From NCBI RefSeq assembly GCF_000422985.1, contig NZ_AUHC01000001.1, positions 248,001 to 312,000 on the forward strand: DNA of 64,000 nt, read 5' to 3'. A program made the position numbers and the translations under genes. This document shows, piece after piece, positions 495 through 42,738 of the stretch. The notes beneath the pieces were generated by a model, which saw only the letters and a program-made list of their open reading frames with translations, searched no databases and was not told the DNA's origin. Source of the DNA: Erythrobacter cryptus DSM 12079 (GTDB lineage Bacteria > Pseudomonadota > Alphaproteobacteria > Sphingomonadales > Sphingomonadaceae). Positions within the stretch are counted from its first letter, which is position 1. Each line of letters starts with the position of its first letter.

Positions 495-1925
495 TCAGCC
501 GGTTGCGCTGGGCTTTTCAACCCAGGCGGGCAGATCGAGCCGGAACACCGCCCCGCCTTCCGGCCCGTTGCTGACCGTGAGCGTGCCGTCCATGGCTTCG
601 GCGAGCCGGCGCGAGATGTAGAGGCCAAGGCCCGCGCCGCCCTCGCGCCCGCCCTCCTGCGCGCGCCCGAGCCGCTCGAACTTGTCGAAGATCCGCGCCG
701 CCTGCTCGGGCGTGATGCCCGGGCCTTCATCGGCAACGCTCACGCCCACGCGGTCTCCGGCGGCTCCGTGCACGGTGATGGTGACGGTGCTCGCCGCGGG
801 GGCATAGGCGATGGCGTTGCCAATGAGGTTGATGAGGATCTGCAGCACCCGGCGAAACTCGGCGCGTGCCACCGCCGCGCCCGCCTCGCCCACGACCTCA
901 AGCACGGTCTCGCGGCTGCGTGCCCGCACGCCGAGGATGCCCGCCGCGCGCCTTGCCGCATCAACCAGATCGACCGGCTCCTCGGCGGTGGCAAAGCCCG
1001 GGGTCTCGACCACCTCGAGATCGGCAAGATCATCGAGCATCGCCGCAAGGTGCTGCCCCGCACTGGCGATGGTCGCGGCATAATCGCTGTATTCCTCGCG
1101 CAAGGGGCCGGCAAGGCGCGCGCGGATGGTCTCGGCATTGGCGATGATCCGCGCCACCGGCTGGCGCAGCACCGGGGTGAGCGCGGTGCCGACCAGGCGC
1201 GCAGGGCTTGCCTCGCCGGCATCGTCCTCGGCCTCGGCGGCGGGCTCGGCAAGCAGGGGTTCCTCAGGCACCAGCAACCATTCAAACCCGCTCGGGGCCT
1301 GGGGATCGGGGCCGAGCGGAATCAGCCGCACGCGCCAGCTGCGCGCCGATCCGGCAAAGCGGCACAGCGCGCCATCGAGCAGGCGCCAATGTAGCGGCTG
1401 GTGATGCGAAATGTCGGCCAGCTCGACCAGCTGCGTCCAAACCTGCCCCGGGGCTGCCATCGCTGCTGCCTCGAGTGCGGCGGCATCGGGGGCGGTGGCG
1501 TTCAGCACCTGCACCTGCTGGCGGGCATCGAGCCGGGCGCTGACTTCGGCGCTGGCCCGGTCGATCGCATCGAGCGTTGCGGCCATGTCGCGCGCCAGCC
1601 CTGCCGAAGGCGCCCGGCGCTGCCAGTTCTCGACCAGCACCTCGCACCCCCCGCCCTCATCCGCGCCGAGCGGACGGATCCGAGCAAAGCCAGAGACCTC
1701 CGCCTCGCCATCATAGGCGCTGAAGGCGCGCGCGAGGCGCAGCCCCATGCGCCGCGCCTGCTGCACCAGCGCCAGCAATTCGGGGATGGCGAGCGTTCCC
1801 GGCAATTCGCCGCCACAGCGCTCCTGCAGATCGGCAAGCGCCGCATCGGCCTGGAGCAGGCGGTCGCGCGCATCGGTGATGCCGGCGGCGCCAAGGCGGC
1901 TGTCGGGAAGGTCCATCGCGGTCAT
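495..1925 (-). CDS. Histidine-kinase-like protein lacking the phospho-acceptor His
   Basis: A 476-residue protein with no clear membrane span. Residues 1-240 are a helical and mixed region that I cannot match to a named sensor domain. Residues 241-305 follow the HisKA dimerisation pattern, but the H-box reads LTPVLRQPVARI, so Pro251 sits where the phosphorylated histidine (H-D/E-L-R-T/Q-P) should be. Residues 350-466 form a complete HATPase_c domain: N-box LINLIGNA, G1 DEGPGI, F-box FDKFERL, G2 GGAGLGL. ATP binding therefore looks intact while standard autophosphorylation does not. The ATG at 1925 overlaps the upstream gene's TGA by one base, which decides the start over a longer frame. It is last in a four-gene operon. 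Confidence 0.85.
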   Translation of the reverse strand: MTAMDLPDSRLGAAGITDARDRLLQADAALADLQERCGGELPGTLAIPELLALVQQARRMGLRLARAFSAYDGEAEVSGFARIRPLGADEGGGCEVLVENWQRRAPSAGLARDMAATLDAIDRASAEVSARLDARQQVQVLNATAPDAAALEAAAMAAPGQVWTQLVELADISHHQPLHWRLLDGALCRFAGSARSWRVRLIPLGPDPQAPSGFEWLLVPEEPLLAEPAAEAEDDAGEASPARLVGTALTPVLRQPVARIIANAETIRARLAGPLREEYSDYAATIASAGQHLAAMLDDLADLEVVETPGFATAEEPVDLVDAARRAAGILGVRARSRETVLEVVGEAGAAVARAEFRRVLQILINLIGNAIAYAPAASTVTITVHGAAGDRVGVSVADEGPGITPEQAARIFDKFERLGRAQEGGREGGAGLGLYISRRLAEAMDGTLTVSNGPEGGAVFRLDLPAWVEKPSATG

Positions 1926-2836
1926 CACCAGGCCGGATCGCTGGCGAGGATTTGCCCGGCGCGCGCGGGCGCCAGCGCGGCAATCGCACGGGGCATCCGC
2001 GCGGCGGGGGCGATCAACAGGCATTGGCGCTCGATCTCGGGCAACTCGGCCCCGGCGGCGCGCAGCGCCAGCGCCAGCCTTGCCCCCTGCCCCTCGTGAC
2101 AGGCGAGCACCAGCGCGCCGCGCGGGAGGCGGGTGGCGGCGGCGAGCGCGCTGGCAAAGAGCGCAAGCCCCGCGTGCTCAAGGCCAAGCGCCGCCCGCGC
2201 CGCCCCGCGCATCGCCGCCACCAGGCGCGCGAGCAGACCAATACGGCTGGCCCCCTCATCATGCCCGGCCTGAAGATGCTCAAGGCCGGCGCGCATTGCG
2301 AGGGCGTGGAACAGCTCGGCCGGAAGTTCGCCGAGCGGCAGTTCCATCCGCCGCTGGCTCTGGATGAAGCGCGATTGCGCCGCGAGCGTGCGCATCGCCA
2401 GGCTCGCGGTGGCGGGATCCTGCGCGGCGATGAGTTCCTGAAGCAATGGGCTCAACACCGGATCGATGGCGTGGCGCTGGTGCAGCCGCTCGGCGATCAG
2501 CCCCTCGGCGGCAAGCGCGTGGCAGAAGGCGAGCAGCGCCTCGTCGGCAATCAGCGCGGCGCTCCAATGCGCGATCTGGTCTTCCGCCTCGGGCCCAGCG
2601 CGCATGGACGGATCGCGGCCCGCCCGTGCAGCGACGATCTGCGTGGAAAGATCTCCGATCATGCCGCGCACCCGGGCAAGCACGGCATCGCTCACCAGCC
2701 CCTCGGCCTCGCTGCCGAGCAGGTGGCGCAGCACCGGGACGACCGCCGCCAGCGCGCGCTGCTCGCGCGCGACAGCCTCCGTAAGGAGCGCCTCGACAGC
2801 ATTGTCGGCAGCCTGATCGATCACCTCATCGCCCAT
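1925..2836 (-). CDS. Helical protein, DUF2336-like
   Basis: A 303-residue, Ala/Leu-rich, almost wholly helical cytoplasmic protein without signal peptide or membrane segment. The layout resembles the uncharacterised alphaproteobacterial DUF2336 family: a helical N-terminal half, an RRMELPLGELPAEL-type linker, then repeated helix pairs around a GLALFASALAAATRLP stretch and an AAGAELPEIE-type turn. This is a resemblance judged by eye, not a search result. No catalytic motif is visible. It is the third gene of the minus-strand block and is coupled to the kinase-like gene through a TGATG overlap, so the two are very likely made together and may act together. Confidence 0.7.
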   Translation of the reverse strand: MGDEVIDQAADNAVEALLTEAVAREQRALAAVVPVLRHLLGSEAEGLVSDAVLARVRGMIGDLSTQIVAARAGRDPSMRAGPEAEDQIAHWSAALIADEALLAFCHALAAEGLIAERLHQRHAIDPVLSPLLQELIAAQDPATASLAMRTLAAQSRFIQSQRRMELPLGELPAELFHALAMRAGLEHLQAGHDEGASRIGLLARLVAAMRGAARAALGLEHAGLALFASALAAATRLPRGALVLACHEGQGARLALALRAAGAELPEIERQCLLIAPAARMPRAIAALAPARAGQILASDPAW

Positions 2837-2877
2837 CGCACGAGGCTTAGTCCCGGCATAGTTAAATCCGCGTTAGT

Positions 2878-4068
2878 TCATTGCATCGGCGCGCGCAGCA
2901 GCAAGACCGCCAGAAGCGTGAGCGCGAGCACGGCGACCGCGCCGGGCAGCTGGCCAAGCGCGGCAGCAAGCCCGAGCAGCGCGAGGAGGCCAGCACGCTC
3001 GGCCGCAAGCGGCGCCAGCGCTCCGGCAGAGCGCGCTGCAAGGCGGGCAAGCCCGACAAGGAGCGGCCCGATGAGCGCCAGCGGCGTCTCGAGCGGCCAG
3101 GGATCGAGCGCGAACCATACGACCAGCGCGGCAAGCCCGTCTCCCAAGGGGCTGAGCGCGGCAAGGCCGCGGCCTGGCGGCACGCCGTGCAGCCGCGCGC
3201 CCAGCAAGCCGATCGCCTCGGCAAGCGCGACGCCGAGGCTCGCTGCCGCGCCAAGCGCCAGCGCGAGCGGGGCTGCGCCGACGAGCGCGGCGGCCACCGC
3301 CGCGCCGAGGCCCGCCAGCCCCAGTCCACCTGCGATCAAGGCGCCCTGCGCCACCCCGCGCGGCGCAAGCGCCCGCGCCAGCGCCATGGCCAGCATCGCC
3401 GAGGGGGCGGACCCGGGAACGGGCGCCGCGGCAGCCGCGATCAAACGCGCCTCGTGCCGCCCGGCAGCCTCGGCGCTGTCGAGCAGCATCCAGCTTTCGT
3501 CGCCAAGCACCGCGCCCGGCAGCGTCTCACACGGTGTGCCGGCCTGAAGCGCAAGGCGCAGCAGCACCGAAATCGCATCGGCATCTTCGGGAACATCGGC
3601 AAGGCGCTGCACAGGCCCGCCGCGCATCACCAAGAGGCCCGCCCAGCAGTGGGCGGCATCGATGCGTTCGAACACCTGCGGATGCGCGGCCGCGCGGGGG
3701 TGATCGGCCGGGATCGCCACCACCACGCGCCGGGCGCTTTCGCCCGCGCCAAGCAGGCCCGAGAGCGCCGCGGGATCGGGCAGGATCCCTTCGCGCAGCA
3801 CGATCAGCGTGTCCTCGGCCCTCACCAGCGCGGGCAGCGCGGCAAAGCGCGCGAGGGCGTGGAACTCCGTCCCCGCCGCCTCGGTCTCGTGCTGCGCCGC
3901 CAGCACGGCATCGCAGCGCTCTCGGCACAGGCAGATCACCCGCTCGGCCCCTGCCTTGCGCAAGAGCGCCGCCTGCCAGGCGAGCAAGGGTCGGCCGGCG
4001 AGCGGCAATTCGGCGCCGAGCGCGCCCGTCTCGGTGGTTGAAAGCGCTGTCAAAAGCGCGATCCGCAT
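2878..4068 (-). CDS. Nucleotidyltransferase-like protein fused to a membrane domain
   Basis: A 396-residue two-part protein. Residues 1-215 look like a sugar-nucleotidyltransferase fold: a strand MRIALLTA, then LPLAGRPLLAWQAALLRKAG, which matches the conserved 'kPLL.w.i..l..aG' helix, then alternating strands and helices. The usual GxGTRL phosphate-binding loop is replaced by STTETGALG. Residues 232-396 are strongly hydrophobic, with about five or six membrane helices. I see no CDP-alcohol phosphotransferase signature (DGx2AR), so a fused phospholipid-headgroup synthase is not supported. It lies between the HPt-like gene (95 bp upstream) and the DUF2336-like gene (41 bp downstream) on the same strand. 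The substrate is unknown. Confidence 0.7.
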   Translation of the reverse strand: MRIALLTALSTTETGALGAELPLAGRPLLAWQAALLRKAGAERVICLCRERCDAVLAAQHETEAAGTEFHALARFAALPALVRAEDTLIVLREGILPDPAALSGLLGAGESARRVVVAIPADHPRAAAHPQVFERIDAAHCWAGLLVMRGGPVQRLADVPEDADAISVLLRLALQAGTPCETLPGAVLGDESWMLLDSAEAAGRHEARLIAAAAAPVPGSAPSAMLAMALARALAPRGVAQGALIAGGLGLAGLGAAVAAALVGAAPLALALGAAASLGVALAEAIGLLGARLHGVPPGRGLAALSPLGDGLAALVVWFALDPWPLETPLALIGPLLVGLARLAARSAGALAPLAAERAGLLALLGLAAALGQLPGAVAVLALTLLAVLLLRAPMQ

Positions 4069-4163
4069 GTCCTGCTCCGCCTCGCGGCGATCATGTCCGC
4101 ATCAGCGCAGTGCCGCTTTGTGCGGGCCAGTGCAAGCGGTGTGCGCTGCCCTGCCTTTGCCGC

Positions 4164-4511
4164 TCAGCGGCGCTGCTGGCGCTGCTGGTCGCGCTGGTGG
4201 GCGCGGGCATAGCGGGCGATCACCCCTTCGACCTCGCGCACCGCCATCGGCTCGCCGGGTGCGGCGTGGAGCGCGATCTCGGCCGCCTGAAGCAGATCAT
4301 CGGCGTTGAAGCTCGCGGCAAGGCCCTTGAGCCGCATCGCGGCGACGTGCCAATTGCCATCGCACCGCGCACGCTTGAGCAGATCGAGCTGGCGCGCCGC
4401 GCTTTCGAGAAAGGCTTGGCGCAGCTCGCGCATCAGCGCGGCATCATCCCCGGCCGCTGCGGCGAGGGTGGCATCAAGGGCACCGTAATCGAAGGCCATG
4501 GCCGCTGCCAT
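4164..4511 (-). CDS. HPt-like protein lacking the phospho-acceptor His
   Basis: A 115-residue all-helical protein with the layout of a histidine phosphotransfer domain: FDYGALDATLAAAAGDDAAL, a helix ELRQAFLESAARQLDLL, then the helix that should carry AHxLKGxA. Here that helix reads VAAMRLKGLAASFNA, so Met59 replaces the histidine while the LKG and following small residues remain. The nearest histidine (residue 55) is one helical turn away. The tail is basic and Gln-rich. The start is uncertain: ATG 4511 is used, ATG 4499 is equally good, and a start at 4571 would overlap the divergent gene. It is first in the block of four minus-strand genes. Confidence 0.75.
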   Translation of the reverse strand: MAAAMAFDYGALDATLAAAAGDDAALMRELRQAFLESAARQLDLLKRARCDGNWHVAAMRLKGLAASFNADDLLQAAEIALHAAPGEPMAVREVEGVIARYARAHQRDQQRQQRR

Positions 4512-4569
4512 AGGCCTGTTCGGGTTAAAGCGGGGTTTATCGCGATTCCGAGTGTGGTAAGGATGTCCC

Positions 4570-7134
4570 ATGGCAGGACGGCATCAGATGCGCGCCTTGG
4601 GGCGCGGGGGCAGCCAGGGCGACGCGGCTGAGGAGAGCGCGGCGGCAGGGGCCGAGGCGCTGGAGCTTGGCCCTGCCGATGAGGAACTGGCGCTTGCCGA
4701 TGGCTGGAGCGCCGAAGACGAGGCCGAGGCGGCGCATGCGCCCTCCCCGCGCCGCGGCTGGATCGCCGCGGCGCTCGCCGGGCTGGTGCTGGCCGGGTGG
4801 AGCGGGTTTTTCGCCTGGGCGCATCAGGACGTGCTCGCCAGCGGCGCAGCACCGCGCGAATGGGCAGCGCTGATCGGCCAATGGGCGGTGCCGGCCGGGC
4901 TCATCGGCATCGTCTGGCTGCTGGCGATGCGCTCCTCGCGCGCCGAGGCGCAGCGCTTTGCCGAGAGCGCTGCGCTGCTGCGGCGCGAGAGCGAGGCGCT
5001 CGAGGCGCGGCTCAAGGTGGTCAACCGCGAACTCAGCCTCGCGCGCGAGTTTCTTGCCGCCGAAGCGCGCGATCTCGAAACGCTCGGGCGTCTTGCGGTC
5101 GAGCGGATCTCCACCCACGCGGCAGAGCTGCAGGCGCTGATCGCCGACAATGGAGCGGAGGTGAGCGCCATCGCCACCGCCAGCGAGGCGGCGCTCGGCA
5201 ACATGAACCGGCTGCGCGGCGATCTGCCGGTGATCGCCCAGGGTGCGCGCGATGTGTCCAACCAGATCGGCGCCGCCGGCCATGCCGCGCACGAGCAACT
5301 GGCCCGGCTCAGCGAGGGCTTCACCCGGCTCGAGGCCGCGAGCGCGGCAAGCGCGGCTAAGGTCGATGGGCTGGGCAGCGAGGTCGAGCGGATCACTGCC
5401 GGGCTTGAAGCGGCGATGGCGCGGATCGAGGCGCTGGCGCAGGGCCGCTTTGCCACGCTTCAAGCCGAGGCCGAGGCCTACCAGACCAAGCTCGAGACGC
5501 TCGCGGGCGAGGCGCGCACGGCCCATGAAGCGCGCCTTGCCGCGGTGGAGGAGGAAGGCAAAGCGCTCACCACGCGTCTCACCGAGGCGGCAGAAAATGC
5601 CCGCAGCGCCTATGAACAAGCGATCGCGGCGCTCCATGACCGGCTGGTCGAAAAGCTGCACAACATTGATGAGCTTGACCGCAGCACCGGCGCCGCGGCG
5701 AGCCAGCGCGTTCTTGCCTTGCGCGAGGAAGCGGCGCGCCTTGACGAACTTCTGGCCGAGCATTGCCGCCGCTTTGATGCCATGATCGCGCAGCGTCAGG
5801 CCGCCTTCGAGACGCAGGAGGCCCAGGCGAGCGAGGTGCTGGCGCAGCGCCTTGCCGCGCTCGATGATGCGCTTGGCGAGCGGCGCGCCGCCCAGCTGGC
5901 CGAGGCCGAGCAGCTGGTGGCACAGGGCGAGGCGCTCGCCGGAAGGCTCGAGGCGCTGCGCGCGGTGATGGCCGAGGCCGGCGCTGCCGGGAGCGAGGCC
6001 GAGCAGCGCCTCAACGCCGCTCTGGCGGCCATCGCCGCGGCGCTCTCCGACAAGCGCAGTGCGCTCGGCGACACCGCCAGAGGCCTCGAGCAGCTAACCG
6101 ACAGCGCGGTGCGGCTGCTCGAGATCATCCAGGCTGCCGCGCGCACCTTGCGCGAGGATCTCGACGCGGCCATTGCCGCTGCCGGGGACGCGCTCGGCAC
6201 GCTCGAGACCCGCGCCGAGGCGGTCTCGCAACTTATGCTCACCAGCAGCGCGGCGGGGCAGGATCTTTCTGCCTATCTCCACGAGACCCGCGCCGGGATC
6301 GAGGCCGCCGAGGCCGCCATGACGAGCTTCAAGGCCGATCTTGCCGCCGACAGCGAGGAGGCCCTCGCCCGGCTCCAGGGCTTGCGCGGCGGCTTTGCCC
6401 GGCTGGCTGCCGAAAGCGCGGCACTCGCCGGCGAGAGCCAGGATGCGCTGCGCGCCGCGCTCGCCCGGCTTGAGGAGGCGATCCGCGAGACCTTTGCCAC
6501 GCTCGAGGATGGCACGCTCACCCGCGCCGGCGCGCTGGCCGAGCAGCTTGGCGGTCAGGCGGTCGAGACGCTCGAGCGCGCGCTGCGCAACGAGGCCGCG
6601 GCCACCATCGGCAAGCTCGAACAGGCCGCCGCCCATGCCTCGGGCGTGGCACGCGAAGCGGCGATCCAGTTGCGCGACCAGCTGGTCAAGGTCAACGAGC
6701 TCACCGGAAATCTCGAGCAGCGCGTGGCGCGCGCCCGCGAACTGGCCGAGGAACAGGTCAACAATGATTTTTCCCGGCGCATGGCGCTCATCGCCGAGAG
6801 CCTCAATTCGGCCGCGATCGACATTTCCACCGCGCTTTCGGCCGAGATCGCTGATACCGCCTGGGAGGCCTATCTCAAGGGCGACCGCGGGATCTTCACC
6901 CGCCGGGCGGTGCGGCTTATTGATAACGCCACGGCGCGCGAGATCGCCGGGCTCTATGGCAGTGACGAGACCTTCCGCGCCAATGTCAACCGCTACATCC
7001 ACGATTTCGAGGCGCTGCTGCGCGCCACGCTCTCGACCCGCGACGGGCATGTGCTGAGCGTCACCATGCTGGGATCGGACATGGGCAAGCTCTATGTCGC
7101 GCTGGCCCAGGCGATCGAGCGGCTGCGCACCTAG
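4570..7134 (+). CDS. Membrane-anchored giant coiled-coil protein
   Basis: An 854-residue protein. The first 60 residues are acidic and disordered, two membrane helices follow at about 64-84 and 98-120, and residues 125-790 are almost unbroken Ala/Glu/Leu/Arg heptad-like coiled coil. The last 90 residues are more globular and look conserved (GDRGIFTRRAVRLIDNATA, then a RYIHDFEALL stretch and a VTMLGSDMGKLYVALAQA ending). The start follows AAGGA with seven bases of spacing. Two N-terminal helices plus a very long coiled coil recall polarity or cell-shape scaffolds such as Caulobacter TipN, but I have no sequence evidence of homology. It is divergent from the HPt-like gene and converges with the DUF1467 gene, sharing a 4-bp stop overlap. 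Confidence 0.85.
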   Translation: MAGRHQMRALGRGGSQGDAAEESAAAGAEALELGPADEELALADGWSAEDEAEAAHAPSPRRGWIAAALAGLVLAGWSGFFAWAHQDVLASGAAPREWAALIGQWAVPAGLIGIVWLLAMRSSRAEAQRFAESAALLRRESEALEARLKVVNRELSLAREFLAAEARDLETLGRLAVERISTHAAELQALIADNGAEVSAIATASEAALGNMNRLRGDLPVIAQGARDVSNQIGAAGHAAHEQLARLSEGFTRLEAASAASAAKVDGLGSEVERITAGLEAAMARIEALAQGRFATLQAEAEAYQTKLETLAGEARTAHEARLAAVEEEGKALTTRLTEAAENARSAYEQAIAALHDRLVEKLHNIDELDRSTGAAASQRVLALREEAARLDELLAEHCRRFDAMIAQRQAAFETQEAQASEVLAQRLAALDDALGERRAAQLAEAEQLVAQGEALAGRLEALRAVMAEAGAAGSEAEQRLNAALAAIAAALSDKRSALGDTARGLEQLTDSAVRLLEIIQAAARTLREDLDAAIAAAGDALGTLETRAEAVSQLMLTSSAAGQDLSAYLHETRAGIEAAEAAMTSFKADLAADSEEALARLQGLRGGFARLAAESAALAGESQDALRAALARLEEAIRETFATLEDGTLTRAGALAEQLGGQAVETLERALRNEAAATIGKLEQAAAHASGVAREAAIQLRDQLVKVNELTGNLEQRVARARELAEEQVNNDFSRRMALIAESLNSAAIDISTALSAEIADTAWEAYLKGDRGIFTRRAVRLIDNATAREIAGLYGSDETFRANVNRYIHDFEALLRATLSTRDGHVLSVTMLGSDMGKLYVALAQAIERLRT

Positions 7135-42587: not shown

Positions 42588-42738
42588 GCTGGCCAAAGCG
42601 CCTGGGCGGCCCCGGGGTTCCCTTGCCCGGCGCTTGCTGTGCGCGGTTCAACCCCTGTTAAAAAGGCTGCAACACCCCCCGCTTGCGCGCCCCGCCAATC
42701 GCGCTAAACAGGGCCGCGTCAGGCACAGGGATCAATCA
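42588..42738 (+). promoter_or_regulatory. sdhB upstream region with promoter-like element
   Basis: This divergent gap holds a reasonable sigma-70-like pair on the plus strand, TTGCGC at 42683-42688 and TAAACA at 42705-42710, with a 16-base spacer. A wide inverted repeat, CCCTGTT at 42653-42659 and AACAGGG at 42707-42713, overlaps the -10 element. No strong ribosome-binding site precedes the sdhB ATG at 42739. Confidence 0.35.

Follow-up and report, generated by a model that had tools for sequence, protein, structure and literature searches.

A block of four minus-strand genes in the window, that is, the whole stretch of 64,000 nucleotides analysed here, is real, strongly conserved and unusual in its composition. 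Beside a DUF2336-family protein, it encodes three proteins without the catalytic residues of the folds to which they belong. By analogy with DivL, there is about an even chance that the block is a binding module that works without phosphotransfer, is specific to sphingomonads and might possibly be located at the cell pole and included in the CtrA regulon. Whereas single pseudokinases such as DivL are already known, this is a conserved block of signalling proteins that has lost catalysis as a whole in one bacterial family and is yet under purifying selection.

Organization and conservation of the block

The block consists of an HPt-like gene (4164–4511), a gene for a nucleotidyltransferase-membrane protein (NT; 2878–4068, 396 aa), a DUF2336 gene (1925–2836, 303 aa) and a kinase-like gene (HK; 495–1925, 476 aa), all on the minus strand. 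These four open reading frames and the gaps between them at 2837–2877 and 4069–4163 are present as claimed in the initial annotation. The TGATG overlap that it described is also real, with the DUF2336 stop codon at 1927–1925 and the kinase ATG at 1925–1923. The domains that had been guessed for weakly scoring proteins were borne out through orthologues, which match DUF2336, NTP_transf_3, Hpt and HisKA/HATPase_c. The unit of four genes stands as far as these genes are concerned, but its extent does not, as a fifth, divergent gene for a transmembrane coiled-coil protein (4570–7134) belongs to it.

Loci were sampled by order-wide searches and a scan of named genomes. In the Sphingomonadaceae in the broad sense, the complete order HPt-NT-DUF-HK is found in 78 of 102 loci and the order NT-DUF-HK in 96 of the 102, and these counts are to be read as not independent, since the loci share descent. 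Such frequencies indicate that the gene order is not due to chance. Its conservation across Sphingomonadales, on which the initial annotation had made its proposal depend, reaches far beyond close relatives. The genera with the block include Erythrobacter, Porphyrobacter, Qipengyuania, Tsuneonella, Novosphingobium and Sphingomonas; it is also present in Sphingorhabdus, where HPt is not adjacent. Full-length orthologues of the kinase and NT were found only within the Sphingomonadaceae in the broad sense. For each of the four genes, simple Nei-Gojobori estimates from five pairs of relatives gave dN/dS values of approximately 0.08–0.31, and with such low values, the proteins are maintained under purifying selection rather than decaying. 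At one locus (L198), overlapping and oddly long open reading frames take the place of NT, which is probably an artefact of open reading frame calling at high GC content.

Loss of catalytic residues in three protein folds

The kinase-like protein (495–1925, minus strand) has an N-terminal sensory region, which is PAS-like in relatives, followed by a DHp domain and an intact HATPase_c domain. In the window member, HisKA scores 28.3 bits and HATPase_c scores 96.4 bits, and both were matched in 19 of 19 orthologues. The phospho-acceptor histidine of the H-box is present in none of the 101 orthologues. The window protein has proline at this site, as do 66 of the 101, while 13 have arginine and the remainder are mixed; the substitutes include lysine, serine, glutamine and glutamate, and tyrosine is not among the listed residues. 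The flanking LRxP is kept in orthologues, and the N, G1 and G2 boxes of the ATP-binding domain are invariant in 19 diverse members. Other kinase paralogues of the same genome in which the H-box is readable do have the histidine. Helix 2 of the DHp domain carries an invariant histidine (AGxHL), but this was ruled out as a replacement phosphorylation site, as it also occurs in some histidine-bearing relatives (SGKHL and SGRHL in L340 and L353).

The closest functional parallel is DivL of Caulobacter, a kinase without the histidine that binds a phosphorylated response regulator and thereby controls a phosphorelay, without kinase activity; it retains the kinase boxes and shows no autokinase activity (PMC4211667). 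Both proteins are alphaproteobacterial and combine HisKA and HATPase_c domains without the phospho-histidine, with the kinase boxes kept. The kinase profile found DivL (4q20) in the PDB at E 2e-26, and the conventional kinases 8u4x and 7z8n scored higher in this search. DivL has a tyrosine in place of the histidine, several PAS domains and DivK as its partner, whereas the protein of the block has proline, arginine, lysine or other residues there, lies downstream of a DUF2336 gene and shares its block with a pseudo-HPt and a pseudo-transferase. The different residue and the different gene context led us to reject the identification of the protein as DivL itself. A relay of the divJ/pleC type was likewise rejected, as there is no histidine. 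The term “phosphorylation-free” would not strictly hold if the kinase-like protein, like DivL, were to read a phosphorylated partner.

The second two-component fold is that of the HPt-like protein (4164–4511, minus strand). Translation probably begins with the ATG at 4499 and not at 4511, since the orthologues begin with MAF or MAY. It shares the helical domain and the LKG motif with HPt domain proteins (PF01627) and differs from them in that all 80 of its orthologues lack the phospho-histidine of HxLKG. Methionine stands at this position in the window protein and in 44 of the 80, the remainder being mixed, and RLKG is kept. The window member scores 15.6 bits against Pfam Hpt, which is under the cut-off of 24.6, and 15 of 23 orthologues match at E<=0.1, the best at 2.6e-6; an HPt profile gave only chance-level matches in the PDB. 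At the level of sequence, the claim of the initial annotation that two-component folds are reused here without the phospho-histidine is correct for every orthologue found (80/80 HPt and 101/101 kinase).

It is quite unlikely, though, that the kinase-like protein has kept its catalytic activity and transfers phosphate in trans to a histidine or aspartate of a different protein, in which case the module would not be phosphorylation-free. The invariance of the three ATP-binding boxes and the strong HATPase_c score are what such activity would call for. DivL, however, has the same boxes and no autokinase activity, the freely varying H-box position suggests a site that is not used, and any partner would have to be unlinked, as the linked HPt also lacks its histidine.

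The third fold is that of the NT protein (2878–4068, minus strand), in which a cytidylyltransferase-like N-terminal domain is joined to a membrane bundle like that of CDP-alcohol phosphotransferases. The window protein has no Pfam match, and 12 of 36 orthologues match NTP_transf_3 (best 1.4e-6). Its predicted structure (pLDDT 93) resembles the bifunctional IPCT-DIPPS enzyme 4MND over the whole length (Foldseek E 3.9e-9), with a Z-score of 22.9 and an rmsd of 5.8 over 359 residues for what is a predicted model only. The sequence profile also detects 4mnd (E 4.5e-4) and 4o6m (E 0.0074). The protein thus shares its fold and domain order with IPCT-DIPPS and the AF2299 CDP-alcohol phosphotransferases (4MND, 4O6M) but has neither their membrane-domain catalytic signature nor their nucleotidyltransferase loop. 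The signature D1xxD2G1xxAR...G2xxxD3xxxD4 of CDP-alcohol phosphotransferases has been described as absolutely conserved (PMC4634129), and its first part, DxxDGxxAR, is found in 0 of 99 NT orthologues. The glycine-rich GxGTR loop of MobA-like NTP transferases (PF12804) is absent from 97 of the 99, and the other two have a loosely similar motif. As judged from these alignments, NT is a pseudoenzyme with an IPCT-DIPPS-like fold in which both active-site signatures are missing. The initial annotation took it for a nucleotidyltransferase-membrane fusion with apparent nucleotide binding; an active nucleotidyltransferase is probably the wrong reading, and an active di-myo-inositol-phosphate synthase was rejected for want of the signatures. 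One may still ask whether NT has acquired a new active site and works as a nucleotidyl- or alcohol-phosphotransferase that is regulated by the pseudo-relay proteins and makes an envelope or solute compound. Its fold and domain order equal those of the bifunctional enzyme, and conserved N-terminal residues persist (ADGL, FERID, WAG and Q175). This is nevertheless very unlikely, given the missing signatures and the fact that G94 and E134 are its only invariant columns.

CtrA-type boxes and the neighbouring genes

Two boxes on the minus strand, each with one mismatch to the CtrA consensus TTAA-N7-TTAAC (PMC7200025), lie in the intergenic regions of the block. One, CTAACGCGGATTTAAC (2861–2876), precedes the DUF2336-kinase pair in the gap between NT and DUF2336, and the other, TAAACCCCGCTTTAAC (4524–4539), lies between the genes for HPt and the coiled-coil protein. 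The 64-kb window holds only three sites within one mismatch of the consensus, where 0.28 are expected and 2 of 100 shuffles reach three; two of the three are the block's own boxes, and the third, TTAACAGGGGTTGAAC, lies at 42646–42661 on the minus strand. Under the same threshold, a box precedes the DUF gene in 86 of 97 upstream regions (shuffles, approximately 0.26 per set) and the HPt gene in 41 of 61 (0.27 per set), mostly at positions −36 to −42 across the family. The slightly looser pattern TTAA-N7-TTAA is rare upstream of NT (1/88) and HK (2/101). An exact scan of the whole genome for YTAA-N7-TTAACC gave four sites, none of them before an obvious CtrA target; this pattern is stricter, and the two boxes of the block do not fit it.

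A single operon for the minus-strand run of the initial annotation is unlikely, as there is one CtrA-type box upstream of HPt and another upstream of DUF2336. Their arrangement suggests two putative transcription units, HPt(-NT) and DUF2336-kinase. According to Brilli et al., Sphingomonadales retain CckA-ChpT-CtrA and are largely without DivJ-PleC-DivK (PMC2877005), and the source genome has a ChpT homologue. The known partner of DivL may therefore be absent, and the partner of the block need not be DivK. Sphingomonas melonis can live without CtrA (PMC8116508). The module can be considered a candidate further layer around CtrA in an order that largely lacks the DivJ-PleC-DivK inputs.

The fifth gene (4570–7134, plus strand) is linked to the HPt gene and encodes a protein of 854 aa with two N-terminal membrane segments (hydropathy peaks at 63–83 and 99–120), followed by a long, SMC-like coiled coil. 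It adjoins the block, divergent to HPt, in most loci. At L281, L119 and L120, HPt lies outside the block, and the coiled-coil gene is still beside it. The polarity factor TipN also has two N-terminal membrane segments and a large coiled coil (PMC9178275), and the likeness described here is one of architecture. TipN is said to be missing from most alphaproteobacterial genomes (PMC5182065), whereas the C-terminal domain of the coiled-coil protein occurs in 53 of 142 sampled genomes. A literature search found no paper that joins TipN with Sphingomonas or Sphingomonadales.

On the other side of the block, citrate synthase (gltA) motifs are found at positions 1–225 of the window, convergent with the kinase gene. 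In Caulobacter, the citrate synthase CitA has a cell-cycle role that was uncovered in tipN-related genetics (PMC7083601). The link of gltA to the block may be only conserved synteny.

Such synteny raises the question of whether the block is simply a stable chromosomal region, extending up to gltA, in which each gene acts separately. Citrate synthase motifs lie within 3 kb downstream of HK in 92 of 98 loci, and HPt has moved out of the block in some genera, as would be expected of a shared neighbourhood without shared function. When blocks are split, however, NT-DUF-HK remains one unit and HPt remains with the coiled-coil gene. The two units also have boxes of one and the same type, and the adjacency of DUF2336 and a kinase recurs in other alphaproteobacterial families. 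Separate functions are thus unlikely.

Ancestry and a possible mode of action

The DUF2336-family protein (1925–2836, minus strand) is all-helical. Matches to DUF2336 (PF10098) were obtained for 16 of 36 orthologues at E<=0.1, with Sphingomonas orthologues reaching 6.1e-27; the window member is below the Pfam threshold and has no match. A fold search yielded nothing convincing (Foldseek E of 1.4 and Z of 4.2 at best), and a literature search found no paper on DUF2336. In several other alphaproteobacterial families (L340–L343, L353 and L358), DUF2336 lies directly upstream of a related kinase, as in the block, but these kinases retain SHELRTP or SHELMTP; some of these outgroup kinases were chosen because the adjacency had been noticed, so its frequency is not an unbiased estimate. 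No relative of NT, HPt or the coiled-coil gene was present within the stretches read at these loci. In L340, L341 and L358, the kinase has DUF2336 genes on either side, and this two-sided flanking suggests a general DUF2336-kinase partnership. In genomic terms, DUF2336 thereby has histidine kinases as its partner.

The sphingomonad pseudo-kinases fall into a single clade (100/100) on a long stem in a maximum-likelihood tree, and this clade is sister to four DUF2336-linked, histidine-bearing kinases (93/92). The histidine is intact (AHKLKG) in the HPt that adjoins the same coiled-coil gene in an outgroup, a different family of the order. Since the histidine is present in both the outgroup HPt and the DUF2336-linked kinases, the loss of each phosphotransfer site probably took place within the sphingomonad lineage.

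We propose that phosphotransfer was lost from two ancestral units, a DUF2336-histidine kinase pair and an HPt gene, whose products were retained as binding proteins. In the pseudo-kinase dimer, the DHp domain would serve as a docking surface and the ATP-binding domain as a conformational switch, with ATP as a possible input. The pseudo-kinase and pseudo-HPt would act in the way of DivL, by binding to response regulators or relay partners that they do not phosphorylate, and DUF2336 may couple to the kinase. The dead IPCT-DIPPS-like protein would hold the complex at the membrane, perhaps with a remaining ability to sense a CDP-alcohol or a nucleotide. The divergent coiled-coil protein might position the assembly, possibly at the cell pole. 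The two transcription units probably belong to the CtrA regulon, which would tie the module to the cell cycle or motility. It is possible, if on balance somewhat doubtful, that all of these parts make up a co-inherited assembly in which three unrelated dead enzyme folds (a histidine kinase, a phosphotransfer protein and a bifunctional lipid-type transferase) and DUF2336 would signal by binding alone, under the control of CtrA and with a polar coiled-coil organizer.

The surviving relatives with an intact histidine provide a natural comparison of the states before and after the loss. In another family of the order (L291–L294), two further genes come after the HPt/coiled-coil pair, one receiver-like with asparagine at the phospho-aspartate position (SNWDMHP, by eye) and the other a second HPt-like gene (AHDMKGQGG).
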